Assembly (NCBI GenBank): GCA_948567375.1
Contig: OX419757.1
Coordinates: 48,667,665-48,731,664, forward strand
DNA: 64,000 nt
From: Lunularia cruciata
Taxonomy: Eukaryota > Streptophyta > Marchantiopsida > Lunulariales > Lunulariaceae
Reading direction: 5' to 3'
Shown here: in pieces, positions 10,420 through 64,000 of the stretch
Position numbering within the stretch: the stretch's first letter is position 1
Layout of the letters: each line of letters begins with the position of its first letter
Position numbers and translations under genes: made by a program
The notes under the pieces: generated by a model
Told to the model about the DNA's origin: nothing
Database searches by the model: none
What the model saw: only the letters and a program-made list of their open reading frames with translations

Positions 10420-10421
10420 TC

Positions 10422-11245: not shown

Positions 11246-11246
11246 A

Positions 11247-11258
11247 TGGTATCAGAGT
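11247..11258 (+). promoter_or_regulatory. A0 primer-binding site, initiator-Met type
   Basis: TGGTATCAGAGT follows the LTR end by one base and matches 11 of 12 positions of the initiator-Met primer site. Confidence 0.88.
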
Positions 11259-11368
11259 AGGTGTTGTCCAAGAGAGCGGATCACCCCTCTTGGAAGAACA
11301 TAGGCTACTGAGACTGAGTAATTTTGAGGAGAGACATTCTAGTGTAATTGGTAGATTAAGAGGATAGA

Positions 11369-11793: not shown

Positions 11794-11829
11794 AGTTTAG
11801 GGTATAGCAATCGAGTGTTACAAGAACCA

Positions 11830-12830: not shown

Positions 12831-12979
12831 TCATACAGGCAATCTTTGAACAACATAGAGAGACGCATCGAAGAGGAGAAGGTGGAAATCACTTTGGAAA
12901 ATGAAGATTGCCAGTAAATGTACCTAGCGGCCTTACTGGCTCAATAAGGAAGCAGAAAAGGAAGGGAAGGAAGAAGACA

Positions 12980-13591: not shown

Positions 13592-13619
13592 ACACTCCCG
13601 GGGAAGACACCACCCTATA

Positions 13620-14880: not shown

Positions 14881-15095
14881 GGTTCAGATTAACCCTAAAT
14901 TCTAGCTAGAGATTCTGGCGGCTACAAAAACTAATCCACAAATTGTAGAGGGGCAATCATCCAAAGGTGTCACCAGCATCCAAGGACTTACCTTTTGTGA
15001 TGGCAAATTATGGATTCCAAATGTCCCAGAATTGCGCACCACTATTCTAGCGGAATGTCATGATTTGGCCATTGCATGTCATGTTGGAATGGACA
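14881..15095 (+). mobile_element. A0 part: start of integrase, up to the B2 insertion
   Basis: The beginning of the integrase zinc-binding region runs to GGACA (15091-15095), which is duplicated after B2 at 20736-20740. The same protein region continues at 20736. Confidence 0.85.
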
Positions 15096-44075: not shown

Positions 44076-44359
44076 AAAGAGATGTAGTTTGGTGACCAAT
44101 ATTATCTCCATGGCTCAATCTCCTCCATGTGAGCTCTCCTAAACTCATGATAGTCATCCATTGGTGGAGCCTCTAAGTGTTGAAACAACCTCTTCCATGC
44201 CATGAAGGATGTGAACCAAGTTGAGTTTTGCATCTATTATATATCAAACCAATTATCAAACTCTTGGATGAAGTCATCCAACTCAATGGTACCAAAGAAG
44301 TGCTTGGGGCCTTTGGAGCCCCATAAATCTTGTTTATATCCCACAACAATGATGGGGAC

Positions 44360-45047
44360 TGTGAGCCGGCCTATCTCTCACTTAGATGAACCTCTGATGG
44401 CTATTATGGTAGTGCACCATGGACTAAGAAGGCAAGGAATCCCAACTCCATCTTACTCCTCCAAGGCTAACAATTCAAGACTCAAGACATTGTTCACTAG
44501 AGAACTCAATGAGAGAGAGATAGTTACAAATGTAAGGATGATGAGTACCTCCTCAGCCCTTGTTTATATACTTGTGAAATAGTTACACACTAAAGTTACT
44601 ATTTACCATAGTAACTCAAGTTACTAAGCTAAAAGTCAAGTAAAGTCAAAAAATGTAAAGGAATATCTATCCACATGGGCATATTCCACTAAGCATATGA
44701 TCTTATCTTGACCCAACCACTAAGTCAAGGATTCCTTCACATGGGCTATCCTTGGACTAAGAAGAATCCAAAACAAAAGGGCTTGCGGGCCCAAGAATTC
44801 TCAACTCTTTTCTCAAAGCAAACACCTAAGAATAATACCAAGTCAACACACTAGAATCCAAAATAGTAGTGCTCATCTTTTCCACTTCCTCTAAATTAAG
44901 GTCCTCTCTATCTTAGCTATGACTAACTTTAGCTAATCATGACTAATGTAGAACCATCTTTATCTCAATATAAATAATATTTCTCAAGTACTTGTAATAC
45001 CAAGCTAGATATCACAATACCACACACGTGCACAAGTAGGTGTTATA
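44360..45047 (-). repeat. Solo LTR of family C inside D-old, 4-bp target duplication
   Basis: 688 bp from TGTGAGCCGG to GGTGTTATA, flanked by GGAC (44356-44359 and 45048-45051). It matches the LTR at 1221-1911. D-old gag continues on both sides. Confidence 0.9.
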
Positions 45048-45726
45048 GGACACACCAAGTGCACTCCCAACTAAATCAAGTCATGTATCAAATTCCAACT
45101 TAGAGTAAATCTCCTCTTTCATTAGGACTTGAGATAGAAGTTGATACCAAGTGCCACTTTGGGTAAATCCATTGTGTACTATAGTGTTATCTCCTCTAGA
45201 ATCCCCAAAGAACTCCATCATGACAATGTAACTCAAACTGCAACCGCAACCACCACAAGTACCCCACCAAGGACCACCACCCATTAATATAGCTCTAATT
45301 GCAATAATTACACAAAGAGAAATGGTGACCTACCATCACAACACACACTCTAACGGTCTATAGGTCATCATTTCTTGCCTAACCAAAGAGAAGCACAAAT
45401 AGTTTGATTGGTCATAACTCTAGTGTTATTACTAAGAGCACACTAGAGCACCAACGCTCTAAAGTCAAAGCACCTCACAAAAACAAGGTGTTTGAATAAG
45501 AAGTAGAGAATGGAAGAGGTCCAATCACAAGAAGTCTAGAAAAAACCCTCCATCTCATAAGTCAGCATCGGACTGACTATATCACCATTTGGCATTTAAT
45601 ATAATAGGAGTGTGTACCTACTTCCTCAGCTATCTAGATCACCAAGAATAGAATCAAATTGCCTTTCCTAGCCAAAGCTACATATGTATAAGTATAAGTG
45701 GAACAATCATTATGACAACAAGTGAA

Positions 45727-45790: not shown

Positions 45791-46738
45791 TACAATCTAG
45801 AAGGATGGGCAAACAAAACTCATCAAAACTAGCTAGCCTCATGCCAACAAGCTGCCTTGCTAGGCTCTCATAACCCACGGCCATCTACATCAAAGCCTCT
45901 AAATGCCAAAATTTAGCCACATATCCTCCACCAAATTTTGACGTAACTCCTCTATAATTGGCTAACCACTAAATTCTTGGCTAAATCTCTACTCGAGCTA
46001 AATTGGAAAGATAGGGATCACCAAATCCCTAATTTGAGAAGATGGGTTCCAACTCCACCTTCAATTTAAACTTTAAGCTCAATTTGCACAAAATCAACTT
46101 GATTTCACCTCTTAGGCTCAAATTGAACACACATTGCCTCAGATTGACTCCATTGTCAAAAATTTGGCACTAGATCAACCTATTTCACCTCTTGGGCTCA
46201 ATTGAACACCCATTGCCTCAAATTGACTCCATTCAAAAATTTTTGGCTAGTGCTTTCACACACCATATGCCCCATTGCCAAATTTGCATAAAATCACAAA
46301 GAGCTTCTACACACAATCACTTTTAAGGAAATCGAAATCATGATCAAAGTACCAATGATCCATCAAGCTTGGAGATACAACCAAGACCCTCAGTTCTTGA
46401 ACCCAATTTCCTCTTGACTCTCACTTCTTTGATGTAATAATTCTTCTTCAACTCAAATCAAACTCAAATAGATTAGTACTGATCATTCACTTAACACTCT
46501 ATCAACAATCGTGCATTGATTACATTCAAGCCACACCCACTCTAGCTAAGAGACTCTATGTGATGGTCATTGGCCTCTATCCACCATAACCAAGAACTCA
46601 AAGGCTGAACATCAAAGAAGTGAGCTCTCTAGAGTTGCACTTCAAAGGTATACTACTCTGCTCAACCTAGTCTCCATCCCTAATGGTGCCATTGATTACA
46701 TGTTTCACATTACAAATGATGCACATGATAGTAGGTTC

Positions 46739-47428
46739 TTTGAGCCGGCCTGTCTCTCACTCAAGATGAACCTCTGATGGCTATTATGGTAGCGCACCAT
46801 GGATTAAGAAGGCAAGGAACCTCAACTCCATCATACTCTTCCAAGGCTAACACTCCAAGAATCAAGACATTGCTTACTAGAGAACTCAATGAGAGAGAGA
46901 TAGTTGCAAATGAAAGGATGATGAGTACCTCTTCACCCCTTGTTATAAACTTGTGAAATAACTATGTACCAAAGTTACTAATTACCGTAGTAACTCAAGT
47001 TACTAGACTAAAAGTCAAGTAAAGTCAAAAAGTAAAAAGGAATATCCATTCACATATGTATATTCCACTAGCATGTGATCTTATCTTGACCCAACCACTA
47101 AGTCAAGGATTCCTTCACATGGGCTATCCTTGGACTATAGAAGAATCCAAAACAAGAAGGCTTGTGGGCCCAAGAGTTCTCAACTCTTTCCTCAAAGGCA
47201 AACACCTAGGAATAATACCAAGTCAACACACTAGAATCTAAAATAGTGGTGCTCATCTTTTCCACTTCCTCTAAAGTAAGGTCCCCTCTATCTTAGCTAT
47301 GACTAACTTTAGCTAATCATGACTAATGTAGAACCATCCTTTATCTCTATATAAACAATATCTCTCAAGTACTTGTAATACCAAGCTAGATATCACAATA
47401 CCACACACATGCACAAATGGGTGTTACA
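46739..47428 (-). repeat. C 3' LTR (690 bp)
   Basis: Matches both solo C LTRs and the partial LTR at 63771-64000. The minus-strand start is TGTAACACCC. The next 12 bp (47429-47440, minus strand TCCGGGGGTAAA) are the polypurine tract. Confidence 0.92.
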
Positions 47429-47499
47429 TTTACCCCCGGACTAAGTTTTCACTTTGTCCTCAAAGTGAAGGTCTCTCTACCTTCTATGATATATTTTCA

Positions 47500-48545
47500 A
47501 CTTATCATGGTTAATCCTATCAAAGTGTCTTCCTCCCAACTCCTTGAGATCATAGGTGTAATTTCCCCACACCTTCTCCACTATGAAAGGTCCAAAGTAC
47601 TTAGGCAAAAACTTCTTTTGCACTCTCTTGAATCAAATAGAATCAAACAACATTACCCAATCACCTTCTTTGAAAGGCTCCACCTTCTTCTTGCCTTGCC
47701 TCTTGTCATAGCTCTCCTTTTTTTTCCTTTGGGCTTGCTCCACTCAAGAAACCATAGCAATTGCTCTTGCCTCTTCCAATTCCATGAGTTGTTCTTTCCT
47801 TGACTTCTTTGAATCACCTCCTTGTGCTTTCTTCAATCTTCTATGAATGCTTTGGAAGGTAGGAAGATCAAAGTGAATAGGTAAGGTAGACTCAATACCA
47901 TATACCAATTTAAATGGAGAATACCCGGTGGAAGTCTTTATGGTTGTCTTATACTCCTACAAAACTGCATGAATCCTCTTGTCCCAATGATGTCTAGCCC
48001 CCTCCATTTCTGCATCTTTGGCCAACATCATGCACAAGGTCTGATTGGTTCTCTTTGCCAAGCCATTTGAATTTGGCTTATAGGATGTAGTTACTCTATG
48101 TGTGAGAGAGAAATGTCGTAGCATGGCTATAGTGATGCTTCTTGTAAACTCTCTTGCTCTATCAAAAACTAACTCCAAAGGGCATCCAAACCTAGTGATA
48201 ATGCGTTCATAAAGAAATCTCCCAACTTCATCTTCATTCTTGTCCCTCAATGGTCTAGCCTCAACCCACTTGGTAAGATAATCAGTAACTACCACAATAT
48301 ACCAATTGTTCCTTAGGGTTCTATTGAGAGGACCTAGAAAATCAATTCCACACTTCTCAAAAGGTCCTAGCAATGGAATTGATCTAAGTGGTGGAGTAGA
48401 AGTAGACTTTCTAGCAAAAGCTTGATAAACATGACAAGTTTTGCAATAATCAAGACAATCCTTGAAAATCCCTCTCCAATGGTAACCTGCATCTAGAATC
48501 TTGAAAGCAGTCACCTTTCCTACAAAGTGTCCTCCACACACTAAA
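47500..48545 (-). mobile_element. C part: integrase
   Basis: The minus strand reads CGGHFVGKVTAFKIL...CKTCHVYQ (zinc-binding region). The catalytic core has CGIDFLGPL, VVVTDYLTKWVEA and a FGCP-type block, then SYKPNSNGLAKRTNQTL. The C-terminal region runs on toward 47500. No chromodomain was recognised before the LTR. Confidence 0.85.
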
Positions 48546-48699
48546 CCTTCATGAAACTCCTTTATAAGTAGGATAGACTCTTCCTTACCAACTTCTCTTC
48601 AAAGTAGACCATCTGCTCCTTGGTGAAAAAGAATATCATCTACCATTATATAAGGTCTAGATCTTGTTGCAAGTGCCTTCCTCTCCCTAGCATGCATCC

Positions 48700-50000
48700 C
48701 TTTTGGATAGTTACCTCTTGTCAAAAAATCCACAATCTCCTTGTATTCCATTGGAACCTCTTAGGTGACTGAGATTGTCATGAGCTCCTCATCTGGGAAG
48801 GAATAATCCACTGGCTCATCTCCATCATGATCATAGGCCTAGATAACAAATCAGCATTTGCATGTTTCTTTCCTAGCCTATCCTCAATGGTGTAGTCATA
48901 CTCAAACAAGAGTATCATCCACCTTAATAGTCTCCCTTCAACATTAGGCTTGTTGAAGATGTACTTCAAAGCCTTGTGATCTGTGACAATGGTGGCTTTC
49001 CCTCCAATCAAGTAGTATCTAAACTTCTTGAGACCAAAGATCACTGCCAACCCTTCTCTATTCGTGACAGAATAGTTCTTCTTTGCTGAAACCATTTGCC
49101 TATTAGCATAAGCTATTGGATGATCATGCCCATCTTGGTCTAATTGACTAAGAGTGCATCCTATAGCTACACTAGAAGCATCAGTGTAGAGGATGAAAGG
49201 CTTACTCCAATCAGGTTTAGCAAGAATTGGAGCTACAACAAGGGATTGCTTGAGCTCCTCAAAAGCTTTGAGAGCCTCCTTGTCATCCAAAATCACCATG
49301 TAATCTACACCCTTCTTCATGTAGATGATCAATGCATAAACCTTGTTGGAAAATGAGAAGATGAACCTCCTATAGTATCCAACCATCCCCAAGAATTGGC
49401 ATAAATTTTTCAAGCTTGAAAGGAATGGAAGGTCTGAGATTTTCCTCACCTTCTCAGGATCAATTGCTATTCCATCCTTGGAGATGATGTGCCCCAAAAG
49501 TAGACCTTCTTCACATCCAAAAATGCACTTCTCTGGGTTGAATGATGCATTTGCCTCATCCAAGCATTGCAAGACCTTGATTGGGTGCTCAAAGTGCTCT
49601 TCCTTGCTCCCATAGACACAAAAGTCATCAATGAAGTCTCTCACAAATTTCCCAATGAAAGGTTCAAATACCTTGTTCATGAACTATTGGAATGTGGCTG
49701 GAGCATTGCAAAGCCCAAAAGGCATGACCTTGAAAGCCTAAGTTCCCCAAGGTGTGGTGAATGTGGTGAGTTGTTGATGCTCTGGTGCAATCTTGATTTG
49801 GTTACATCCACTACAACCATCTCCAAAATTGCACCTCTCATGACCTGCAACCTCCTCCAAGATCTCATCAATGAATGGCAATGTGTAGTAGTCCTTCTTG
49901 GTAACAATATTGAGCTTCTTGTAATCCACACATACCCAAAGCTTGCCGTTCTTTTTCTTCACAATGACAATTGGATACACCCATTCTGAATTCTCTATCT
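48700..50000 (-). mobile_element. C part: reverse transcriptase and RNase H
   Basis: RT shows FVRDFIDDFCVYGS as the catalytic box (near 49600-49660), GHIISKDGIAIDPEKV and FLGMVGYYRRFI. RNase H shows YTDASSVAIGCTL, PIAYANRQM and TDHKALKYIF, ending near NADLLSRP (about 48830-48860). Confidence 0.9.
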
Positions 50001-50540
50001 CAAAGATAAATCCAACCTCCTTGAGCTTATCAATCTCCTCCTTCACAACCAAAGATATTGGTGGGCTAATGCAATGTTGCTTTTGGCGGATTGGTCTTGC
50101 ATGTGACTCCACCTCTATCTTGTGCTCTTCCAAGGTGACTTTCTTCACATCCGTATAACTAAAAGCAAACACATGGATGAACTTGCAGAAAATCTCCTCA
50201 AATCTCACCTTCTCCTCCTTGGTAACATTTGGACCATACTTGAGGGCAGATAACCTTCTCTCTACCTCCTCAAGTGTCAATGGTGATTTATTTGGGTCCT
50301 TCAAAACCTCTGGCTTAGGTGCAAAGTCCATAGCACACAAAGGATACACATCTAAATCAGATTCATATTCATCCTCTTCTGTGGAAGTCTCCTCTTCCAT
50401 GCTTGTGTTCACACCTGAAGCTCCTTCTTCAGAATCTGATTCCCAATAATTAGAAGATAGTGTATCTGAATGTGAAGTGTTGGTAGTATTAGTCACAGGA
50501 ACTATGACTCTATGGTTTGATGGCCCAATCCTCAAGTACC
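50000..50540 (-). mobile_element. C part: RT start and acidic linker
   Basis: The N-terminal RT region (HARPIRQKQH, IENSEWVYPIVIVKKKNG, WVCVDYKKLN) follows an acidic serine-rich linker with SDSEEGASGVNTSMEEETST (about 50360-50450). Confidence 0.8.
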
Positions 50541-50559
50541 CTTTGTGTCATCTATCAGT

Positions 50560-50900
50560 TATGCATGCTGCTCTCAACCATGGCCTCCCAAGAAGTAAGT
50601 CATAGCTTGAATCCTTCAAGACTTGGAAAGTCATGAGATTTTGAATTCCCATAACTGAAACTACCACTTTATCCATCACCCCTATTGGTCAAACTTGTTG
50701 CTTGTTTGCCATGCTCGCCACAAATGTTGAAGGTCTTGAGGGTAGCATACCCAACTTCTTCATCAACCTTTCTAACATGGCATTTACTGTTGATCCTCCA
50801 TCAACCAATGCATCCTTGATGTTGTGACCATTCACTCTCATATCAATCTTGGAGGCATATTCACGAGCCTCCCATGGTGCTAGCTAGGCATCCACCACCT
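50560..50900 (-). mobile_element. C part: aspartic protease
   Basis: Minus-strand traces read ALVDGGSTVNAM (the active-site region, D-G-G type), followed by KKLGMLPSR and YDLLLGRPWLRA, as in Athila/Tat-like retropepsins. Confidence 0.7.
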
Positions 50901-51059
50901 CCATTCATAATGGAACTTTTGCCTTCTTCTTCCTCTTGCTCCTTGTAGAACTCAAACCACCTCTAAGCTCTTTTCTCAAGGTAGGGTTCAGAACAATCAA
51001 TTGGCCCACTATGATGTTAGCCTTGTGGCTACCAACATCCTCTAACACATTGTAGTTCC

Positions 51060-52330
51060 ACTATTACTTTGAAATCAAGAAATCCTCCATCCCCAATTTC
51101 TTCCTTGGAGTCTTTGATGTTGTTGAGGTGCGAGTGCTCTTAGTAGACATAGGAGTATCCTTGCTTGGAGTAAATCCTTGCGAAGAGTGAACATCCTCTA
51201 CGAAACAAGCTCTCTTTTTCTCTTGTGCCAAAAACTCCAAATTAAGACCCTTGGAGTTTGAGCACTCTCCCTTCTCATACTTTCTCTCAACTACATCTAT
51301 GGATGCTATCCCTTTACCTTTGTTTGGATTAGGAGCCACTTGGGTTCCACTACCTCCCTCTTTTCCTCTATTGGCTCCCTCATAACCCCTTCCTCCATGG
51401 TAGGTGGAATTTGGGCAATTCCTTTGGATATGGCCTCTTCCTCCACAACCAAAACAATTTCTATCATTGAAATTGTTGGGTGGTTGGCCTCATCTAAATG
51501 GATAGTTTCCATAACTCCTAGGCCCTCTCTCTAAATTTTGATCCACCTCTCTCTTCTCCCATAGTTGTACCACATTGATTTTGAGATCTGCAAGTTGTTT
51601 TGTGATGGTTTGAAGTAGATCATTTGGTGGAGGTGCAAGAATTGGAGAAACTACTACTTGCGGTGCAACCCTTGCCACCAAAGTATCAGAAGTTCCACCA
51701 TACTTGTAGCCTTGAGGAGGATGCACAACCTCCTTCACCACCAAATCACTCTCATCCCCTTCCAAACTCTCCTCCATACAAATTGCGATCTTGATAGCTT
51801 CAACCTTGGAAGAAGGTTTCTCATATCTCACCTTGATTCTTATTTGTGGTCTCAACCCTCCCACAAAATTCTTGGTGAGAATGGCCCCTATGCCAATCAT
51901 AGTAGTCTCTACATCATCCCCACCCTTCCTCAACACTATGCAAAATCTGGACTCTAACTTTTCTACTCTTTCCACATAGAGCCTCACTTTTTCTCCATCT
52001 CCTTGCTTGAGAAAGGTAACCTCACTCATCAATCTCTCATAACTCTCATATGGGAGAAATTTCTCAATGAGTGCTGAAGTAAAAGTCTCCCAAGACTCTT
52101 CTTGCCCATCTCTCCTCTCTCTCTTTTGGCATTCTGACTCATACCATGTAAGTGCTGCGTCCTCAAAGAAATCTGGTAATAATGAGGCCCGCTCATTCTT
52201 CCTCCTCTCATTGTTTCATATGCAAGCTCTCTTGAAGTATCTCACAAAGGCCTTCACATCTTCTCCATCCTTGCCAAAGAAAACCGAAAGTTTCTCCATC
52301 TTAACCCCTCATTATCTTTCTTTTCTCTCA
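51060..52330 (-). mobile_element. C part: gag and zinc-knuckle region
   Basis: The gag core (51490-52330) starts near MEKLSVFFGKDGEDVKAFV, with VTFLKQGDGEKVRLYVERVE and KNFVGGLRPQIRIKV. A CCHC knuckle lies near 51400-51470, and a lysine/serine/threonine-rich tail follows at 51064-51339. Confidence 0.8.
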
Positions 52331-52769
52331 AATTTTTTTTTTCTCTTTTCTTTTTTCTCACTCTATAACTAATAGAGTATATACATGACTAACACCATCT
52401 AAGAATAATCCAATCTAGCAAACACAAAAGGTTCAGGTTGCTCCAAGATTTCTATAGCAACATCAAATCCTAGAGTGCATACTAATCTAACTCTCATGTA
52501 TAGTTTATCCATAAGTTGAAAGATTATCTCCATCACTAATCTTGAGAACTAGCTGATGAAGGTGGTAGTATTTCTGTAGCTGTACTAAGACTCTCTCCAA
52601 GATCCTTCACCAAAGTCTACAAAAGTGCTTTTACTCCACTACACTCATATCTTTTTGGAAGTCCTTCCACTCCACAAACCTCACACAACTCCTTGGTCTT
52701 AGATCTTTTCCCTCCCAATTTTGGTGAAGAAAGTCCAACATGCAAACCCAAGTCAAGTAAGCCTCTCCT

Positions 52770-53009
52770 TTAGCTCAATCTCTTGCTTTCAAAGGTCAAT
52801 GGACATGAACTTGCCTTATGTCCCTTCTCTCCACATACAAAGCACTTAGACTCACTCTTTCCTCCAAGTGGCGTAGGTTTTTGGATCCTCTCAACACTCT
52901 CTTCAAATTCTATTGTAAACTCTCTTTTCCTAAAATCCACCCCTACAATCACCTCAAACCCTTTGGGAACCTGACATAGTCTCAATTTCCATTTTTGATG
53001 ACACTCCAT
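52770..53009 (-). other. C leader: small sense-strand ORF with a second CCHC zinc knuckle
   Basis: Seventy-nine codons upstream of gag end in CFVCGEKGHKASSCP, a perfect CX2CX4HX4C knuckle. Before it lies a basic, hydrophobic stretch (CQVPKGFEVIVGVDFRKREF). An extra knuckle ORF before gag is not normal for Ty3/gypsy. It may be a captured fragment of another retroelement's nucleic-acid-binding protein or of a host CCHC gene. Confidence 0.5.
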
Positions 53010-53284
53010 GTTCCCAAGATGAATCTAAACACTCAAATATGCTTTTTGTTGCTCTCAAACTCCTCATGCATGAGATCTCAACTTTGCAGAATTGACCCTT
53101 CCTCACAATTTCACTCAAATTTCTCAACTAGTATGTAATAGTCCTTTGAATTTTTTCACATTTGATCACAACTCTAGGGCATCACTCCTTGAAAAATTTC
53201 AGATCTTTTCATAGAGTCATTTGGCCTAGAAACCTTTCTATTCACCACACATATTTCAGATTTGGTTTAAAAACCACCCCCTTC
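53010..53284 (-). other. C leader, inner part
   Basis: AT-rich leader DNA of C with no supported coding region. It ends at ACTT (53285-53288), which recurs after the D insertion at 63188. Confidence 0.6.
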
Positions 53285-53290
53285 ACTTTG

Positions 53291-53737
53291 TCACGCCATT
53301 TGTAGTTCCGCATCTAGATGCTCGGACACTGGAGTTCCAGTGATGGTAGTTAGAGTTATTCTAGCTGTTTCTCAGGGACTACTTTCCGACGGTTAGATTT
53401 CGTGTTCGGGGTACTTACTTCACGGTGGGGCCCACCGTCACTTTGCACCGTTTGCACCGTCGAGTGTGCCGTCAGCGGGACCGTTAGGGTTTCAGGGCTA
53501 GCTCGAGTCCAGGGGGTATAGTTTCGAAGTGAGCTCCAGAGAGCTCACTTCTCTAATGTTGAGCCTTCGAGTTCCTGGCTATGGTGGACAGAGGCCGGTG
53601 AGCGTCACCTGGATTCTCTATGCTTGAGTGGGTGTGGCTTGACTGTAATCAGTGCCCAGTTGTTGGCAGTTTATAGAGTGACAGATCAAGTACTGATCTG
53701 AGTTGAGTTGAGTTGAAAGTGTTAAGCAATCTGATTA
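53291..53737 (+). repeat. D 5' LTR segment b (447 bp)
   Basis: It begins TCACGCC and ends CTGATTA, repeated at 62634-63080. The element's 107-bp segment a is absent here. Several inverted GAGCTC blocks lie near 53530-53550. Confidence 0.9.
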
Positions 53738-55060
53738 CATCAGAGAAGTGAAGTCAGGGGGAAATCGGGTGCAGGAACGTTGAGTGTTGGTGGTATCTCC
53801 AAGCTCGATGGATCGTGGTAGCTCGATTCAGGTTCTGTGTTTCCCTAGTGTGCAGAAGCTCGTGTAGTTGATGCAAATTTGGCAGTTAGGCGGACGGTGT
53901 GCGGAAGCGCTGGCCAAATTTTGAGCAAAGAATGAGCAATTTTCGAGCAGTGTTGTGATTTTGAGCTCAGGAGGTGAAGGCAGGACCAATTTGCTGTGAG
54001 TTGGGCTCAGAAAGTGCAATTGAAGGTGGAGTTGGAAAGCTCTTCTCATGAAATTGTGATTTGGAAAAACCCGTTTTGTCAATTTGGCTCGAGTGGAAAG
54101 TTAGCGGGGGATTTGGCGGACATCCATCTTTAGGGTTTACGTCAGATTTTAGGGCCAGAATTGGAGGAGTTTCGCTGTTTGGCCAGATTTGGAGAAGTTT
54201 CGCTAGTTTGGAGGAGTTTCGCAGATTTGGAAAAGTTTCGCCAATTTTGGAGGAGGTTCGAAGTGGCAACAAGAAAGGCCTCATTTGGCTGAATTTCGGC
54301 ATTTCGAGGCATAGGGCTGTGGGCTATGAGAGGCTACGAAGGCCTAGAAGGGCCAGAAGGGCCAGCAAGCCAGCTTGCTGGCGTGAGGCTAGCTAGTTTA
54401 GTGTAGATCTTGGTCATTGGTTGGCAAAATCTGCCTTTCTTGCTAGATTGTGCGCAACAGGGTTTGACCCCTAGATCTCTTGTTCCTAGATTGGTGCCCT
54501 AGCCAACTGGTCCACCCTCACTTGTTGTCATAGTGACTGTGCCACTGTTATCTATACACATGTAGCTTTGGCTAGGAGAGGCAGTTTGATCCCATTCTTG
54601 GTGATCCTGGTAGCTTAGGACTTAGATACGAACTACTCTTATGTCAAATGCCAAATGGTGGCAGAGTCAGTCCCGTGTTGTGTTATGAGATGGAGGGTTT
54701 TTGTTTAGATTTCTTGTGATTGGATCCCCTCCATTCTCTGCTTCCTGTTTGTGCACCACGTTTGTGTGAGGTGCCTTGATTTTTGAGCGTTGGTGCTTTG
54801 GTGTGCTCTCGGTGGTGAGGCTGGAGTGATGACCAGTCAGACTACCTTTGTTTCTCTCCGGTGAGGCAGGAAGTGATGACCTGCAGACCGTGAGAGTGCA
54901 TGTTATGATGGCAGGTTACAGGTTGCCCTTCCCCTAGTGTAGTTATCTCGGTTAGAGTTACATTAGTGGGTGGTGTCTAGTTGGTGTTGGCACTTGGTGG
55001 GGCACTTGCAGTTGCGACTTGCGGTTGCAGTTGGTGGTTCGGGTTTGCTGTTGCAGTTAC
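53738..55060 (+). other. D leader
   Basis: A 1.3-kb untranslated leader. CATCAGAGAAGTG right after the LTR shares ATCAGAG with the initiator-Met primer site but lacks its TGG, so the primer tRNA is uncertain. A T/G-rich repeat series around TTTGGAGRAGTTTCGC lies at about 54185-54250. D-old carries a matching leader. Confidence 0.6.
54460..54516 (-). repeat. tRNA-like (SINE-like) stretch in D leader, antisense
   Basis: The minus strand reads GTGGACCAGTTGGCTAGGGC (A-box-like), an anticodon-arm-like middle, then GGGGTCAAACCC (B-box-like), spaced as in a tRNA. It is conserved in D-old at 45727-45790. It is not a functional tRNA gene by eye, since no acceptor stem closes it. Confidence 0.45.
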
Positions 55061-56089
55061 ATGGTCACGACGGAGTTCTTTGGAGATTCCAGAGGAGTTA
55101 GCCCTGCAGTACGCAGTGGGTTTACTCGGAGTGGTACTCGGTATCAGCCTGTATCTCAGGTCCCAGTGAGGGAGGAGATTGACTCTGAGTTGGAGTTCGA
55201 CACAGGAGCTGATTCAGTTGAGAGTGCACTTGGTGTGTCCGCACCGTTGTTGTGGGACATGGACGAGATTTATGGGGCCTCCAAAGGCCCTAGGCGTTAC
55301 TCTGGTACAGTGGGTACTATTGAGTTGGATGATTTCATCCAGGAGTTCGATAGTTGGTGTGATCTGCAGCAGATGCGGAACCCGACTTTGTTCACACCCT
55401 TCATGGCATGGAAGGGGTTGTTTCAGCACTTGGAGGGTCCACCGATGGACGACTACCATGAGTTCAGGAGAGCTCATTTGGAGGAGATTGAGTTATGGAG
55501 ACAGTATTGGTCTCCACACTATGTCTCCATCACTTCAGGTTCGGTGGCCAGGAGTAGGTCGGCTGTACCTACGAGTTCTAGCTCGAGTAGTGTTGGTGGA
55601 GCTAGTGGAGGTGCACTAGCTGGAGATAGTGCTACTACGAGTGGAGGTACTGCTGCAGGAGGTGGTGTGGTATCGGGGTTTAACCCCATGGTGGAGTTCT
55701 TCCTATGTTTGAGGCAGAACTACCAGGGAGTGCGGACTGACAAGCTGAGGAGCTTGCAGGAGTTCCAACGGAAGGCTGGAGAGAGCCTACGCGAGGCATA
55801 CACTCGCATGAGGCGGCTGATCAGTTTCACTCAAGGAGTTACTGAGGCCCAAGCAGTCCAGTTTTGGTATGGGATACTGGACAGGGAGTTGCGACGTAGA
55901 GTTCGTGATGCTACGTTGTTGCAGGCTACTTCGCCCACTTTGGCAGTAGTCTTTGGTTTGGCTGAGCGTATTGAGCTCAACATGGTGGAGGAGAGAGTGG
56001 TGACAGCTGGATTTGGTAGAGAGACCTCATCCACGGTTGTGACTTCTTCTAGAGTGCAGCAGAGTGCACCACGCCCAGTTGGTTTTTGA
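55061..56089 (+). mobile_element. D part: gag
   Basis: It starts MVTTEFFGDSRG, a start also seen in D-old. A long N-terminal region is followed by a gag core (about 55690-56030) with NPMVEFFLCLRQNYQG, LQEFQRKAGESLREAYTRM and AVQFWYGILDRELRRRV. It has the fold expected of a Ty3/gypsy capsid region. A serine/glycine-rich linker separates the two halves. Confidence 0.85.
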
Positions 56090-56189
56090 GGACAGGGTGG
56101 ACAGCCCAGATCCTATGGAGCGAGTGGAGGGCCTAGTGGAGTTAGACCCTTACCCTCATTTTTGGGTCAGCAGCAGCCAGTGAGTGGTG

Positions 56190-57240
56190 GTGTTGCTTGT
56201 TGGACTTATGGTGGACCTCACCATAGGAGAGAGTGTACTCAGGGCAGCGGACCTGATACCTCTGGTGCATCACAGCCAGCACAGAGGCAGTGTGAGCACT
56301 GCCATAGATTTGGTCATACTAGTGACCGGTGTTTTGACCTACACCCGGAGTTACGGAGTGGTAGGGCTGCTATGGCAGGTAGTAGAGGAGCTCCAGTTCA
56401 TGGAGGACGAGGTGGTAGAGGTGGTGGTAGAGGATCTACACCTAGTAGGGGTGCAGTACCTGCCCTTACTTCTGACACAGCTATGGCTACTCGGATTGAG
56501 CAGTTGGAGCAGAGATTGGCTAGTATGGCTATTGCTCATAGGAGATCAGATTCGGGTGCTGAGGCTTCCACCTCATATGCTGGTGATAGAGATGCTTTGG
56601 ACTTCATGTGCGGAGCAGCACAGGTGGATGCATCTGCAGCAGTGACTAGGAGTGCAGTATGTGCTCCAGAGCCTAGAGGAGCATCAGTGGAGTTGGACCC
56701 ACAGAGAGGAGAGGTTGGGAGACAGGTCAGACTTCCCCAGTCTTTCACGCTATCTGAGGCATTGCAGACGACATCCATGGTTCCTAGACGTCCCAGTGCA
56801 AGTGTGGTAGGTGGTGATGGAGTACCTGATGGAGTACCTGCTAGTCAGCCACCTGCTACTACACAGACTGAGTCTAGCATGATGTTGGGGGCGGCTCAGC
56901 TGATTATGCGGCATCCTTTATTTTCAGCCAGTGACATGTTTACATTGGGAGTTGACCCAGCCCCAGTGTTCCGGTTGGCTGCCACGTTGTGTGAGAGTAG
57001 GGATGGTGCAATTCCTACTACTAGAGCAGAGGTGGTTGGTAGTGGAGCTGACTTGGTTGAGGAGCATGGGATCCGTTCAGCGACCAGTGGTTTATGGCAG
57101 GCAGTAGCGGCTAGACTGGAGGAGTTGCCAGCTAGACCGGCCTTTGAGAGAGCGCGGTTTACACCTGGTGTTGTCCTATTGGATAACCAGAGGGGGATCT
57201 TTTGTTTAGTGGGACCTTCAGGGAAGGTCTATACACCATA
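56190..57240 (+). mobile_element. D part: zinc knuckles, RGG box and protease-side linker
   Basis: A knuckle-like CWTYGGPHHRREC is followed by a clear CCHC knuckle, CEHCHRFGHTSDRC (about 56292-56333). An RGG box (GGRGGRGGGRG, about 56404-56436) and a short coiled coil (RIEQLEQRLASMA) come next. Knuckles and RGG boxes both bind RNA. The long tail toward 57240 has no recognised domain. Confidence 0.75.
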
Positions 57241-57560
57241 GAGAGTCTTGTTAGACTCTGGTGCGCAGCCCCTTATGTTGGGGAAAGCTGCAGTTGTTGG
57301 TCTGGAGTTACGGAAGACCGATGTGGAGAGGTGTCCATTTCAGATCCAAACATCTCTAGGTGGTGGTTCGACACAGTACATCACACGTGGGGAGCTTGTT
57401 GTCCAGGTTCAGCCTGGTCATCTGACTGATAGCTTGGTGGTGAGAGCTCAGGCTATTGCGACGATAGCTGAGTCCTATGATGTGCTAGTTGGGGGAGCAA
57501 TGTTATACCCTATGGGTTTCAGTATTGACTATTGGGAGGAGACAGTCTCTTATAGACCTG
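57241..57560 (+). mobile_element. D part: aspartic protease
   Basis: LLDSGAQPLMLG carries the catalytic D-S-G-A. A second hydrophobic block, SYDVLVGGAMLYPMG, stands where the family's ILG motif lies. It is of retropepsin size, about 100 residues. Confidence 0.8.
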
Positions 57561-57643
57561 GTTGACAGTCTGGTGAGGGACGGGTATGTCGTCTACCAGT
57601 ACGTTTCAGTAGTGGCAGTCTTGGCTCACTACAGTCCGGGACC

Positions 57644-59251
57644 ATGGCAGCATCAGTTTTGGCTTTCAGCGGTGCAGTCACTTGGCCTGGTGACTTGTTG
57701 GAGGGGAATGCCCATGCAAAGGATACTCCAGTACCAGAAGAGATCACTCGGCTATGGAGTACGAGTGGGATTGTTCCATCCACCTTGGATGTTCCATTGT
57801 GGAGTTCAGAGGAGGCATTGCAGCAGCATGCAGATCAGTTGGTGCAGCAGGCTTGGAGTGGAGCCTTCGTACCATCAGGGGATGAGTGTGAGGATGAGCC
57901 TCCAGAGGCGATTGCTTTGACACCTCTGGATACCACACTCATTGCTTGGCAGTATCCAGTAGAGGGGATATGTCTATTAGAGTTGTTTGGTGGGATCAGC
58001 ACCGGACTAGCTGCGGTGTTACAGGCGGGTATCCGAGTACAGAGGTACTTGTATGTAGAGAGAGATGAGACTGCTAGGCGAGTCTCTCTACATCATGTGG
58101 CACACTTGGCCTATCGGTATCCGGAGTTATTACCGATGTCAGCAGTCAGAGGTTACCAGAAGGCCTTACCAGGAGACATTTCCTTACTGGGGGCGCATGA
58201 CCTAGAGAGACATGGGCCTGTTCACTTGGTGATTTCTGGATGGCCATGTCAGGGACATACACGTGCGGGCCGCGGTTTGGGTCTTCAGGATCCTCGTTCT
58301 GGTGTGTTTTGGGAGATGTTACGGATACTACGACATCTCCAGGTTCATCAGTCTGTTTCTCCAGCTTACCTTTTGGAGAACGTTCCATTGATGGGTGATT
58401 CTCGCACTAGAGTGGTGGCGAGTACACATCAGGTCCATTCATGGATGGGACCTGCTGTATTGTTAGATGCAGCCAGAGTGGGATCACGGGCTCATCGTCT
58501 TCATCTTTGGTGGACAAACCTCTTACCCAGAGAGGTTCTACAGCGTGCTTATGATGGGATTCAGCGACTGGACCACATTCTTGTTGATGATATCTTGGAT
58601 GTTGGGCGTCAGTCTCAGACAGTGGTAGTGGCTGATAGGTCACCCATGGCAGTGGTGAACCTAGTTGGACAGCCTAGAGCTGCATTTCCCACACTCATGA
58701 GTTTCCCAGGCTCTCATGCTTTTCGAGAGGGAGGACCTGGACTTGTTTGGGACTCACAGTTACAGCAGTTGGTGGAGCCCAATGCTGATGAGAGAGAGCG
58801 GGCAATGGGTTTTCACACCGGTATTACCGTTGTTCCAGCAGTGTCAGAGGCATCCAGGCGTCAGGTGTTAGGTCAGGCTATGGACCTGAACTGTTTGACC
58901 TGGATTGTGAGCCTTGGTTTGGCAGAGCAGCGTAGGATGCGCTTGATAGGCATCACCACTCGGACACTTGTGAGCCCTGTGCCTATCGAGACGATTCAGG
59001 CACATGCTGGGGGCGATGGACCGAGTGGACATGGTATTCTTGGGACACATCCAGTAGCTACTAGGGAGAGTGGTCTACTTGGAGTCCATCCAGGTGAGCG
59101 TGGGCTACTTGGATTACACCCTTGGTCCACATGGGATGCAGCCAGAGGACGTATGGAGCTTGCAGCCAGAGTGGAGGGAGTTTTTCACACAGAGGTTGGG
59201 ACCTCTAGTGGTTGGGAGCATGACACCATTGCTCCCAAGGGCCCAGTGTAG
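57644..59251 (+). CDS. D part: C5 cytosine DNA methyltransferase domain (DNMT3-like layout)
   Basis: The reading frame runs open across 57644-59251; the methyltransferase domain is about 57965-58920. Motif I is LELFGGISTGLAAVL (about 57977-58025), the S-adenosylmethionine site. Motif IV is SGWPCQG with the catalytic cysteine codon at 58247-58249. Motif VI is LLENVP (58376-58384 for ENV). Motif VIII-like is VGSRAHRLHLWW (about 58480-58515). Motif IX is ERAMGF (about 58795-58812) and motif X LGQAMDLN (about 58868-58890). The order is canonical, unlike the permuted plant DRM enzymes. No BAH or chromodomain is present, so MET1 and CMT types are unlikely. The AHR and MGF blocks look most like DNMT3. 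It sits between protease and RT, an added domain in this family. It would methylate cytosine in DNA, plausibly the element's own cDNA; activity is inferred. Confidence 0.88.
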   Translation: MAASVLAFSGAVTWPGDLLEGNAHAKDTPVPEEITRLWSTSGIVPSTLDVPLWSSEEALQQHADQLVQQAWSGAFVPSGDECEDEPPEAIALTPLDTTLIAWQYPVEGICLLELFGGISTGLAAVLQAGIRVQRYLYVERDETARRVSLHHVAHLAYRYPELLPMSAVRGYQKALPGDISLLGAHDLERHGPVHLVISGWPCQGHTRAGRGLGLQDPRSGVFWEMLRILRHLQVHQSVSPAYLLENVPLMGDSRTRVVASTHQVHSWMGPAVLLDAARVGSRAHRLHLWWTNLLPREVLQRAYDGIQRLDHILVDDILDVGRQSQTVVVADRSPMAVVNLVGQPRAAFPTLMSFPGSHAFREGGPGLVWDSQLQQLVEPNADERERAMGFHTGITVVPAVSEASRRQVLGQAMDLNCLTWIVSLGLAEQRRMRLIGITTRTLVSPVPIETIQAHAGGDGPSGHGILGTHPVATRESGLLGVHPGERGLLGLHPWSTWDAARGRMELAARVEGVFHTEVGTSSGWEHDTIAPKGPV

Positions 59252-59329
59252 CAGCCAGTCAGTATGTCTTCCACTCCTACTACAGTTACAGAGGATACTT
59301 GGGAGCCAGATCTTGGACCCAAGCTTACT

Positions 59330-60080
59330 GGAGGAAAGACGGAGGGTTTGGAGGTTCTTGAGGAGTCACACGAGTTGTTTTGCCTTCAGTATGAAGGATT
59401 TGGGTGCTCTGAAGGGACCTGGTATACGGATTGAGCTGACTAGCGACACACCTGTTTTCCGACGTCCTTATCGATATAGTGAGATGGAGAGGACATTGAT
59501 TCAGAGCCGGAGTAGTGACCTTTTTGAGGCTGGTTTGGTGGAGATTTCACATGGAGAGTATGCATCAGCGACAGTGATGCCAGCCAAGAAGGATATGCAT
59601 GGCAACTATACAGATATGCGGATGTGTGGAGATTACCGTCCTATCAACCAACAGACCAGGGCTGATCGGTATGCCATGCCTACACCGGAGGAGATTTTTG
59701 ATGCGATTGGGCATGCAAAGGTCTTCAGTACTTTGGATCTTCGAGCGGGATATCATTAGTTGCCGATCAGGGAGGAAGATAAGTCCAAGATAGCATTTTG
59801 GGCTATTGATCCTCACGGCAAGGATGTGTTATATCAGTGGAGATTCTTACCATTTGGGTTGAAGAATGCTCCTGCTAAGTTCCAGAGGGTCATGGATAGG
59901 ATCCTAGCTGGACTGGATTTTGCTTGGTGCTATATTGATGACATTTTGGTGTATAGCACTACTGTGGAGGAGCATGAGAGACAATTGTTGGAGGTGTTTG
60001 AGAGGTTGAGATCTCATGGACTCAAATTACATCCTGGGAAGTGTAGGTTCTTCCATGAGCAGGTTGAGTATTTGGGTCAC
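59330..60080 (+). mobile_element. D part: reverse transcriptase
   Basis: Blocks appear in family order: RRPYRYSEMERTLIQSR, MRMCGDYRPINQQT, FSTLDLRAGYH, RFLPFGLKNAPAKFQRVM and WCYIDDILVYSTT (catalytic box near 59935-59955). GHTIYPGGLGVQQTKV follows. It differs clearly from the A and B chromoviruses. Confidence 0.9.
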
Positions 60081-60740
60081 ACTATCTACCCCGGAGGACT
60101 TGGTGTTCAGCAGACCAAGGTGGAGGCTATTGCACGTATTCCTCGGCCTACGGATGTGAGCAGAGTGCGAGCATTCCTTGGGTTGGCGAACTTCTATCGC
60201 CGCTATGTTAGAGGATTTAGTGCCATTGCCAAGGCCTTGACGAAGCTGACCAAGCTTACACAGGAGTGGTGTTGGGGAGATGAGCAGGAGAGAGCTTTTG
60301 TAAAGCTCAAGGAGAGGTTGACATCTGCTCCTATTTTGAGGAGACCGATCAGGGGACGACCATTTCAGGTTCACACTGATTGGAGTATGTTGGGGCTTGG
60401 AGCGGTGCTCACCCAGCATGATGATGAGGAGAAGGAGTTTGTGGTGGCCTATGCTAGTCGCTCCAACAATTCAGCGGAGGCAAAGTATAGTTCATATGAG
60501 GGAGAGTGCTTGGCAGCAGTTTGGGCAGTAGCACATTTCCGATGTTACCTATTTGGTAACCCCTTCACTCTCATCATTGATCATCAGCCGCTGAAGTGGT
60601 TGATGGAGTCCGACAAGCTTTCAGGGAAGCTTGCACGATGGGCTCTGATTTTACAGGAGTATGATTTCACGGTTGTTCACAGACCTGGAGTGGTGAACCG
60701 TGATGCAGATGGGTTGAGTAGAAACCCATGTCCCAGCCAG
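60081..60740 (+). mobile_element. D part: connection and RNase H
   Basis: FLGLANFYRRYVRGFS begins the connection. RNase H includes QVHTDWSMLGLGAVLTQ, YSSYEGECLAAVWAV, IIDHQPLKWLM and NRDADGLSRNP (about 60690-60730). Confidence 0.9.
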
Positions 60741-60939
60741 CAGGATCAGACCGGAGCACGTTGGCATGGTGAGACAGATGAGGAGATGGTGCCAGGTTGG
60801 CATGCATCAGCCTTTCTGTGTATATTTGCAGAGACATTGGTGGTATCTCTCTCAGCGCATACAGGAGGAGTTATTGAGGTCACAGATCCAGAGAGTGAAG
60901 ATATTGGTACAGTTCAGTGAGACATTCATGATGATGTCT

Positions 60940-62210
60940 TAGTGATGGACTATCTTCGCACTGGTGTTGTGGGTGGCACAGTTGGGGCCAAGGAGAGAGA
61001 CCGTGTTCTTCAGCGAGCCAGACGGTTCAGATTGGAGGGTAGACACCTTTTGCGTGTATGGGAGGATGGTAGAGTGCGAGTAGTACCACTTCCATCACAG
61101 AGACCACAGTTGGTCCGTCATGCTCATGAGGAGCTAGGACATTTTGGAGTAAAGCATACATATAGCTTACTCCAGAGTCATTATTGGTGGCGCGGTATGC
61201 AGACCGAGGTACAGCAGTTTGTTGCCAGATGTGTGGTTTGTGACCGAGTTAGAGCATCATTCAATGCTCCTACGCCACAGTTACACCCATTACCTATCAT
61301 GGGATTGGGTTACCGTTGGAGTTTGGACTTCGCCGGACCTTTACCGCTGACTGTGAGACATCATCGGTATGTTTTGGTGATGGTGGACCAAGTGGATTGA
61401 GTTGGTGGCACTTCCTGACAAGTCTAGTGAAGGGACAGCTTACTCGTTCCTGGATCGAGTTCTTAGTCATTTTGGTGCACCAGCTGAGGTTTTGACTGAT
61501 CAGGGTACAGAGTTCTTGGGAGAGTTTCAGGTCTTGTGTGACAAGGCTTTGATTGATCATCGTACTACATCCCGAGATCACCCTGAGGCAGATGGCCTAG
61601 CAGAGAGAGTGGTTCAGACGGTGAAGAGAGGATTGCGAAAGTATGGTTTGCAGAGAGGCCACTTGGGAGATTGGGATCTCCAGTTATCTTGGTTGGCCAT
61701 GGGCTATCGGTTCAGCCGGCAAGCCTCCTTAGCATCCTTCTCTCCATACTTTCTACTCTATGGACGAGATCCAGATTTACCTGCAGCCATTCGTCGAGAT
61801 GCTACTGTAGTTTTGGACTTAGATGACCCTGATGTATGGATGAGCGCATGTTCTCAGCAGGCAAAGATCTTTCGGAGAGTGATGCCGATGGCCTTCAAGA
61901 ACTTGGCAATTGCTCAGCATAGAGATACTTTACGCTATGCTACCATTCGAGGAGGAGGTTATAGACCCTCGATCCGTCGATTTCATCCAGGTGACTATGT
62001 ATATCTACAGCAGACAACACCGACGACACTTGATGTTTCTAGAGGCCGCACTATCTTGAGAGTGCGCGAGGTTTTGCCATCTGGAGTCCTTGTGTTAGAA
62101 GGACGTGATGGTGTTTTTTGGAAGGATCATGTGCGCAATTGTGCGCCATGCCACCTCCCAAACATTGATGGTACTATGGACCCAAGCTTGGCACTTGTAC
62201 GTGCAGGCTT
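60940..62210 (+). mobile_element. D part: integrase
   Basis: The HHCC zinc region is at about 61115-61250 (HAHEELGHFGVKH...CVVCDRV). The catalytic D-D-E core is recognisable from WSLDFAGPLP, VLTDQGTEFL and HPEADGLAERVV. The C-terminal region has RRFHPGDYVYLQQ and a small beta-rich stretch. The PHD finger follows. Confidence 0.88.
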
Positions 62211-62214
62211 GAGG

Positions 62215-62349
62215 TGTATGTTATGTGGCTCTTCTGGTGGAGCTGCTACTATGTTAGTGTGTGATAGCTGTTCGAGAGGATGGCATATGGCATGTATGAC
62301 TCCTCCCCTCACGGTGGTTCCTCAGGGACAGTGGTTATGTCCTAGATGT
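62215..62349 (+). mobile_element. D part: PHD finger at integrase C-terminus
   Basis: Cysteines and histidine follow the PHD order: CMLC, CDSC, WHMAC, then WLCPRC, with PPL between as in many PHD fingers. It is about 45 residues and ends the integrase frame three codons before its stop. PHD fingers read histone H3 tails, often by lysine-4 state. In chromoviruses a chromodomain fills this place. A targeting role is inferred. Confidence 0.87.
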
Positions 62350-62510
62350 ACTTGACCTATAGCTAGTTCATTCTTTATATGGTATAGATTGCAGACAGGC
62401 GACTAACGATGGGGCTCCATAGCACCCGGCCTCCTGATCTTTGCCCATTAGAGGGTATACCATATACTTAGAGTAGATGGCTATCTGGAGTTAGAGGGAC
62501 CTAACCGCCA

Positions 62511-62523
62511 GCTAGGGGGGCGA
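62511..62523 (+). promoter_or_regulatory. D polypurine tract
   Basis: GCTAGGGGGGCGA stands immediately before ATTGTGGCAC. Its position argues that the LTR proper begins at TGTGGCAC (62525). Confidence 0.75.
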
Positions 62524-63187
62524 TTGTGGCACTTTAGAGTCTATGTATGACTTATGTGTGAGTTGTGCTTTTATAGTGTATGATGTTGACAGCGATGTAT
62601 GTTGTGTAGCGATGTATATACGCACGACAGCTATCACGCCATTTGTAGTTCCGCATCTAGATGCTCGGACACTGGAGTTCCAGTGATGGTAGTTAGAGTT
62701 ATTCTAGCTGTTTCTCAGGGACTACTTTCCGACGGTTAGATTTCGTGTTCGGGGTACTGACTTCACGGTGGGGCCCACCATCACTTTGCACCGTTTGCAC
62801 CGTCGAGTGTGCCGTCAGCGGGACCGTTAGGGTTTCAAGGCTAGCTCGAGTCCAGGGGGTATAGTTTTGAAGTGAGCTCCAGAGAGCTCACTTCTCTGAT
62901 GTTGAGCCTTCGAGTTCCTGGCTATGGTGGACAGAGGCCGGCGAGCGTCACTTGGATTCTCTATGCTTGAGTGGGTGTGGCTTGACTGTAATCAGTGCCC
63001 AGTTGTTGGCAGTTTATAGAGTGACAGATCAAGTACTGATCTGAGTTGAGTTGAGTTGAAAGTGTTAAGCAATCTGATTAATTGTGGCACTTTAGAGTCT
63101 ATGTATGACTTATGTGTGAGTTGTGCTTTTATAGTGTATGATGTTGACAGCGATGTATGTTGTGTAGCGATGTATATACGCACGACA
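62523..63187 (+). repeat. D 3' LTR array: segments a, b, a
   Basis: Segment a (62523-62629) is followed by GCTA, then segment b (62634-63080), then a second, identical a (63081-63187). The LTR is probably a plus b, about 556 bp, starting TGTGG and, judged at the 5' end, finishing GATTACA. TATAG near 62571 and TATATAC near 62616 are possible TATA boxes in a. Confidence 0.82.
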
Positions 63188-63191
63188 ACTT

Positions 63192-63770
63192 CAAAAACTC
63201 ATAACTCCCTGCTAAAGAATGATCTCTCTCTAATTTTTGTGTCAAAAGGTAGAATATAACATAATAAATTTTCTTGGAGATTTTCACAACAATCCACTAA
63301 TAATTGAAGAAATGGAAAACTGTGTACAATTTTCCAGAGAGCATGTAGTTGCGGGAGCAGTTTACCCTATCAACTTTCAAAATTTCTACCCCAATGCGCA
63401 TAACAGCTCTCACAATAATTCTAAGTGTTCTAACTATAGGACAACCTAAGCTATCATGTGTAGAAATTTCAAGTTCAGATCTTCAACTTGAGATTTTGCC
63501 CAAAATTACCTTAATCTCCAAAATCTGCAATCCACCTCACACAATCTCTCCAATTCTTCTCATGTGTACAAGATGTACAAAATCATTTCAAAGATATCAT
63601 AATGAACTATAGGGTATACAAATGGATCTTGGTTCTCTAACATAAGTTCAACCCTCTCATCTCTTAATGTTCTCTCCAAGTGAGCTCTCATAGCCTCCTT
63701 CTGCCTAATGTAAATTGAACGCGGAACATTATCTTGCCTTCTAGAGAAATCACGGCAATAGAACCAAAAA
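63192..63770 (-). other. C leader, outer part
   Basis: About 580 bp of C leader between the D insertion and the C primer site. No supported coding region or structured RNA seen. Confidence 0.6.
63751..63766 (-). promoter_or_regulatory. C primer-binding site
   Basis: The minus strand reads TGGTTCTATTGCCGTG, four bases from the 5' LTR end. It starts TGG as a primer site should and shares TTGCCG with the tRNA-Asp-type sites of some plant Ty3/gypsy elements. The primer tRNA is not settled. Confidence 0.65.
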
Positions 63771-64000
63771 TGTGAGCCGGTCTGTCTCTACTCAAGATGA
63801 ACCTTTGATGACTATCATGGTAGCGCACCATGGATTAAAAAGGCAAGGAACCTCAACTCCATCATACTCATCCAAGGCTAACACTACAAGACTCAAGACA
63901 TTGCTCACTAGAGAACTCAATGAGAGAGAGATAGTTGAAAATGAAAGGATGATGAGTACCTCTTCACTCCTTGTTATAAACTTGTGAAATAACTATGTAC
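63771..64000 (-). repeat. C 5' LTR, cut by window end
   Basis: Begins TGTGAGCCGG on the plus strand and aligns with 46739-46968 with about 12 differences in 230 bp. The rest lies outside the window. Confidence 0.9.

Follow-up and report, generated by a model that had tools for sequence, protein, structure and literature searches.

The window analysed here, a 64,000-nt stretch of the Lunularia cruciata genome (contig OX419757.1, positions 48,667,665 to 48,731,664), contains a Ty3/gypsy retrotransposon that encodes a DNMT3-like C5 cytosine methyltransferase and carries a PHD finger at the C-terminus of its integrase. Its assignment to Ty3/gypsy follows from the order of reverse transcriptase (RT), RNase H and integrase, an H2C2 zinc finger and a DDE core, read both in the broken window copy and, within one intact open reading frame (ORF), in a metagenomic relative, L001. 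On balance, we favour the reading that the methyltransferase is a de novo writer that marks the element's own new DNA and the PHD finger a reader. DNA methylation is directed mainly at transposons, yet the present family encodes a methyltransferase of its own, which has stayed intact over a long divergence.

The methyltransferase ORF (57644–59251, plus strand; 535 aa, with the catalytic domain at about 57941–58963) has an uninterrupted reading frame and lies between the protease and the RT, on the element's strand. A Pfam scan returned PF00145 above the curated cut-off (E value 2.1e-7, 31.1 bits; cut-off 22), and the motifs follow one another in canonical order: I (LFGG, 114), IV (GWPC, 199), VI (LENV, 244), VIII (SRAHR, 281), IX (AFPTLM, 347) and X (LGQAMDLN, 409; ORF residue numbers). 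The initial annotation, which had recognised such an enzyme here from its motifs and proposed a profile search of the domain, was therefore correct on this point, as it was in arguing for a DNMT3-like source. As it had also argued, a DRM identity could be ruled out because motifs I to X run canonically, without circular rearrangement; among solved C5 methyltransferases, DNMT3 was nearest by sequence, profile and predicted fold. Profile comparison gave 1.8e-23 for DNMT3 versus 1.5e-4 for the tRNA methyltransferase DNMT2, and the structural matches share 18–27 % identity with the domain, indicating a divergent DNMT3 relative. No DNMT1, CMT or DRM chain appeared among the 50 matches listed by VIA-align, a list that does not exclude such chains. 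Pfam detected neither an ADD nor a PWWP domain in the window methyltransferase ORF or in ORF1 of L001; the element has the PHD finger on its integrase instead. A tblastn search with the methyltransferase ORF (E 1e-3) revealed no second methyltransferase stretch in the window.

A search of 5.8 billion proteins, with scoring limited to the 7999 candidates that had the most words in common with the query, returned 86 methyltransferase relatives (E ≤ 1e-3, best 7.2e-200). The organisms named among them are Calypogeia fissa, Sphagnum species, Marchantia polymorpha, Riccia sorocarpa and Closterium, besides one entry from a bacterial metagenome-assembled genome (MAG). A further retroelement domain lies in the same protein in 38 of these; the other 48 comprise the methyltransferase alone. 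Two further protein searches gave 40 matches, partly overlapping with the 86, and 444 matches. Among the 120 matches listed of the 444, 53 include the methyltransferase within the one protein, as judged with our profile, and 118 have a PHD match; in the rest of the 120, the enzyme may lie in a separate ORF, as in L001, or be absent. With profiles grown from the L001 domains, the methyltransferase was found in 173 of 243 proteins. The initial annotation's view that this arrangement is very rare is not supported, given the 86 relatives, the 40 partly shared rows and the at least 53 enzyme-bearing proteins among the 120 listed. No row among the matches listed in the three protein searches was named Klebsormidium. 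In viral contigs, a single-protein search yielded no relative, and an alignment search yielded 14 loci whose methyltransferase ORFs scored at most 51.7 bits with the family profile. That the domain is a functionless one-off, either a host DNMT3 fragment inserted here or a chance resemblance, is highly improbable: the window copy is broken elsewhere, as such an origin would allow, but the idea is contradicted by the 86 relatives (38 with a retroelement domain), by the intact L001, and by the constraint and the trees described below.

L001 is an intact relative on a 9285-nt metagenomic contig filed under a cyanobacterial MAG, and it closes to a circle because its 127-nt ends are identical. The bacterial MAG filings of L001 and of a second relative, P0031 (Synechococcales, Obscuribacterales), probably reflect mis-binning or contamination. 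The L001 ORFs encode gag-protease-methyltransferase and an uninterrupted RT-RNase H-integrase-PHD polyprotein of 1043 codons; at L001 positions 3489–3504, the two share one reading frame, interrupted by a stop codon, an arrangement suggestive of readthrough or re-initiation. The window and L001 methyltransferases share 52 % aa identity, with proportions of nonsynonymous and synonymous differences (pN, pS) of 0.341 and 0.743 over 339 codons and synonymous sites near saturation; the corresponding identities are 66 % for RT/RNase H, 70 % for the integrase, 60 % for the PHD finger and linker and 44 % for the protease. Catalytic residues are retained in nearly all full methyltransferase rows, and the motifs are intact in Marchantia P0107, Calypogeia P0001 and L001. 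In the enzyme of the Closterium protein P0078, Glu replaces the motif IV Pro, and Haematococcus P0126 has a PHD integrase with no methyltransferase match within that protein. A DNMT3-like domain within gypsy pol is the kind described as KnitGypsy-Dnmt3, and its conservation was judged here on relatives, not on copies from the same genome.

The relatives were divided into two types by the position of the enzyme: type I, after gag/protease or before RT (the window arrangement), and type II, after RNase H or directly before the integrase. In a methyltransferase tree of 115 domains (those covering >85 % of the profile), the type label needs a single change (support 93/99, 27 unlabelled rows uncounted); bootstrap values were not fully settled, several branches are long and midpoint rooting places four type II rows beside type I at a weak fork. 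The window copy falls in a 22-row set with rows from Calypogeia, Sphagnum and Marchantia (100/96). The integrase tree (126 rows: 6 type I, 54 type II, 66 unlabelled) requires one change too, with SH-aLRT support of 97, and methyltransferase and integrase identities correlate across 43 elements, only five of them type I (r 0.75; 0/2000 permutations). Because the trees agree and the identities correlate, we conclude that the two domains have been inherited together; the two positions would then reflect either a single capture followed by a move or two separate captures. Among type II rows (P0117–P0243), 17 of 41 have Glu for the motif IV Pro (GWEC) with the catalytic Cys kept, and 14 of 41 have Thr for the Val of ENV, both changes being unusual for C5 methyltransferases; the type I protein P0116 also carries the motif IV Glu, like Closterium P0078. 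Some type II polyproteins extend past the PHD finger, including P0117, with a match to PF21743, a Tudor-like family, and P0180, in which a Tudor-like stretch was noted by eye.

The PHD finger itself (62215–62352, plus strand; PF00628, E value 2e-11) forms the C-terminus of the integrase. A C4HC3 pattern is present in 120 of 125 PHD stretches of the family, most of which were brought in by a search whose query included the PHD finger and which therefore favours PHD-bearing proteins. Five proteins with an integrase match have no PHD match; three end <50 residues past the integrase, and in the other two the sequence continues for 115 and 162 residues, so that at least one may truly lack the finger, given the usual integrase-PHD gap of 107–120 residues. 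PHD fingers that read H3K4me3 typically have an aromatic residue two positions before the zinc-binding His. In this family, that position is Gly in 114/120 stretches, and the Asp of CDxC is present in 113/120; because of the Gly in place of an aromatic residue, the sequence favours an H3K4me0-type reader.

Chromatin readers on related elements offer a first comparison. REM1 of Chlamydomonas (Perez-Alegre 2005) is reported to be a Ty3/gypsy element with chromatin-reader domains, PHD among them, and is not known to have a methyltransferase; its reader lies in a separate reverse ORF, whereas that of the window element is on the integrase. A reverse-frame module of REM1 is mentioned in text from PMC2774666. 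Brown-algal Gypsy elements carry chromodomain or Tudor readers on the integrase, according to the text of PMC12477816, and in these, as in the chromoviruses and our element, the C-terminal portion of pol is joined to a chromatin reader; unlike them, the window element has a PHD finger in that place, plus a methyltransferase. No chromodomain was matched by Pfam in the window or L001, and since the integrase ends in a PHD finger, the element does not classify as a chromovirus.

The closest published system is KnitGypsy-Dnmt3 of Klebsormidium nitens, a gypsy element with Dnmt3 in pol and purifying selection on the domain (de Mendoza et al. 2018, PMC5890265). Our element shares with it an intron-less, non-rearranged Dnmt3 within gypsy pol; it differs in that KnitGypsy-Dnmt3 was reported as an acquisition of the K. 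nitens lineage (PMC5890265), whereas the named enzyme-bearing relatives found here include liverworts, Sphagnum, Closterium and, with a degenerate domain, Volvox. Given this spread, the capture described from a charophyte in 2018 may represent a single branch of a broader and more ancient family. The dinoflagellate elements SymbioDIRS-Dnmt3 and SymbioLINE-Dnmt are likewise retroelements bearing a DNA methyltransferase (DNMT), and the SymbioDIRS enzymes conferred de novo CG methylation in yeast; they use DIRS or LINE machinery, with a tyrosine recombinase in DIRS, whereas the window element has a DDE integrase (PMC5890265, main text). The main text of that article, its figures aside, contains none of the words PHD, Marchantia or moss, and a passage of PMC12344493 mentions streptophyte and dinoflagellate retrotransposon DNMT3 by citing it. 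Among the open-licence papers listed, leaving aside subscription papers, Repbase and figures, we found no report of a gypsy family combining a PHD integrase with a DNMT, or of bryophyte copies. The kind of element is thus already published; what appears to be new is the spread across bryophytes and Closterium, the PHD-finger integrase and the two positions of the enzyme.

We propose that the methyltransferase would be made among the gag-pol products, travel with RT and integrase and methylate freshly made element DNA either ahead of insertion or shortly afterwards. The PHD finger would tether the integrase to nucleosomes, probably those with unmodified H3K4, much as the chromodomain does in chromoviruses. 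Newly inserted copies would thus already bear the silencing mark used by the host and would land in chromatin where they do it little harm. The chances that self-methylation is the selected function seem about evenly balanced, and that reader and writer act jointly is a further guess. The initial annotation's suggestion that the element may methylate its own cDNA or nearby chromatin is plausible and had already been put forward, as speculation, for retrotransposon DNMTs (PMC5890265). If reader and writer do cooperate, the family would allow one to ask directly whether pre-silenced arrival benefits an element, an experiment made feasible by the relatives whose motifs are intact (Marchantia P0107, Calypogeia P0001 and L001).

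Several observations weigh against this proposal. KnitGypsy-Dnmt3, the nearest enzyme to have been assayed, produced no methylation in yeast, a result that the main text of PMC5890265 calls inconclusive, human DNMT3B having failed too. The window copy is dead and has His at residue 287 of motif VIII, where 104 of the 110 aligned rows with a letter have Arg; the CG/CHG mutation pattern of its repeats, described below, is equally expected from host enzymes; and the histone target of the PHD finger is predicted from sequence. Nor is the enzyme kept in all relatives: motif IV is absent from Marchantia P0108 and P0046, and the one named protein from a chlorophyte that has the domain, the type II protein P0160 of Volvox reticuliferus, is degenerate, with motifs IV, VI, VIII and X unrecognisable. 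The named chlorophyte sequences therefore do not establish an active writer, the many type II rows with an intact Cys being metagenomic.

Two other functions were weighed. The enzyme could be aimed at the host or at rival elements and remodel host chromatin, for instance by silencing its neighbours or by overloading the methylation machinery of the host. Enzymes of the DNMT3 type are able to modify any CpG in trans, and genome-wide effects in Symbiodinium are discussed in the main text of PMC5890265; however, the gag-pol position points to a particle protein instead, and we regard action in trans as unlikely. Alternatively, the substrate could be element RNA or the tRNA primer, or the protein could be a nucleic-acid-binding part of the particle. 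The motif IV Glu of type II (17/41, Cys kept) may signify an altered chemistry or substrate, and a few relatives have lost motifs altogether; against this stand the DNMT3-like profile and fold, with DNMT2 far behind, and the preservation of the catalytic residues across almost every full row, which in our judgement leave a role of this sort improbable.

The ends of the element are arranged as A1-internal-B1-A2-B2, i.e. DIRS-type split direct repeats combined with a DDE integrase, in the one complete copy available. Terminal repeat A1 (53289–53737, plus strand, 449 nt, starting with TGTC) follows a target-site duplication ACTT (53285–53288); repeat B1 (62523–62629, plus strand, 107 nt, ending in GACA) and repeat A2 (62632–63080, plus strand, 449 nt, aligned with A1) are separated by GC (62630–62631, plus strand); and repeat B2 (63081–63187, plus strand, aligned with B1 and also ending in GACA) forms the right end of the element, followed by the identical 4 bases at 63188–63191. 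The chance of the 4-base flank match alone is 1 in 256. A1 and A2 differ at 8 positions over 449 nt (BLAST 440/447), and B1 and B2 at none over 107 nt. The B1/A2 junction has the layout of a circle junction, with both integrase ends head to head (GACA-GC-TATC), in this one copy; it reads CGACA-GC-TATCACG in the window and CGACA-GC-TGTCACG at the same place in L001.

The same ends could be conventional long terminal repeats (LTRs) of B+A structure whose 5′ copy was truncated, with the extra 3′ B added by a later rearrangement. Consistent with this, a polypurine-tract-like AGGGGGGCG (62514–62522, plus strand; a similar GCTAGGGGGGG occurs in L001) lies directly before B1 and the leader directly after A1, the circular assembly of L001 fits ordinary LTRs too, and there is only one complete copy, the decayed second copy being indecisive. 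We doubt this account, given the outer TGTC...GACA ends with their matching 4-bp duplication and the junction, which is kept in L001 as GACAGCTGTC amid sequence that has diverged (B about 66 % alike, A without a significant BLAST match). The legend to Fig. 4 of PMC5890265 also describes the repeats of KnitGypsy-Dnmt3 as arranged like those of a DIRS element, a wording that may mean less than split repeats because the main text describes DIRS with LTRs.

The PAT, Ngaro and Kangaroo elements have split direct repeats, in the A1-internal-B1-A2-B2 layout seen here, and a tyrosine recombinase, and they are not known to make target-site duplications; unlike them, the window element has a DDE integrase and a 4-bp duplication. 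No tyrosine recombinase was among the Pfam matches of eight window ORF stretches and three L001 stretches. Split-repeat ends with a DDE integrase appear to be new, on thinner evidence than the features above; if true, the combination would join two life cycles that are usually apart. A wider reading remains tentative, and we lean against it: an old green-lineage clade of Ty3/gypsy elements may have kept its reader-writer pair through a move of the writer within pol, and a circle-like intermediate, with the DDE integrase acting on head-to-head ends (GACA-GC-TGTC), may have given rise to split repeats and a 4-bp duplication, so that one particle would both insert and methylate. The degenerate Volvox methyltransferase makes this reading slightly less likely.

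The window copy is young but inactivated. The initial annotation had called it young, which the 8/449 differences between the A repeats support; the copy is nevertheless dead, since in-frame stops occur at 56087, 57239, 57563, 59757 and 60918 and the frame changes near 61400, besides the His at residue 287. Within the 447-nt alignment of A1 and A2, six of seven differences are of the C-to-T kind, three at CG, three at CHG and none at CHH; the eighth falls in the two terminal bases beyond it. CHH makes up 132 of 224 sites, and the chance of all six lying outside CHH is about 0.005 if sites are equally mutable. In the gag stretch of the old second copy, C-to-T-type differences (not polarised) are likewise denser at CG (14/34) and CHG (33/78) than at CHH (46/290). 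Both patterns are consistent with integrated copies having been methylated, whatever the enzyme responsible.

The remaining coding parts, all on the plus strand, are as follows. The gag region (55019–57241, with a zinc knuckle at 56291–56332) matches Retrotrans_gag PF03732 below the cut-off (E value 0.0079) and contains the stops read at 56087 and 57239. An aspartic protease-like region (57248–57565, DSGAQ at 57254, stop at 57563) has no Pfam match in the window copy; Asp_protease_2 is below the cut-off in L001 and above it in P0025. RT and RNase H (59070–60920, stops at 59757 and 60918) were matched by RVT_1 and RT_RNaseH on 59760–60917, and the RT ORF overlaps the methyltransferase ORF in another frame. 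The DDE-type integrase (zinc-binding domain and core, 60942–62214, frame change near 61400) matches Integrase_H2C2 (1.8e-18); its rve core scores 24 bits (4.9e-5), under the 32.6 cut-off, versus 1.1e-13, above the cut-off, in L001. The predicted structure of the integrase-PHD ORF is a weak model (mean predicted local distance difference test 68.2, predicted template modelling score 0.31). By-eye inspection identified no convincing primer-binding site, and the window contains no tRNA genes. A conserved non-coding block (62397–62443) before the 3′ repeats is 83.7 % identical to L001 over 49 columns; its predicted fold is not notable (z −1.58 and −0.88), and its one Rfam match, at 16.7 bits, lies below the gathering score of 41.

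A second copy lies on the minus strand at about 46653–37017 and is 69–79 % identical in the longer matched parts. It is decayed, having lost not only the methyltransferase but also RT, RNase H and the greater part of the integrase; because most of pol is gone, the missing methyltransferase says nothing about retention of the domain. Its 3′ end gives two alignments of equal score, B1 then A versus B2 as the end, and does not count as support for split repeats. The plus-strand element appears to be nested in an older gypsy element on the minus strand (46735–64000 of the window) with LTR-like repeats at 46735–47431 and 63771–64000, the latter cut by the window end, and a further copy of this LTR-like repeat interrupts the second decayed copy at 44359–45048. 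Elsewhere, long direct copies at 4542–9166 and 10421–15095 are 85.5 % identical, and RT-like stretches of other retroelements occur at several sites, making the window rich in nested retrotransposons.
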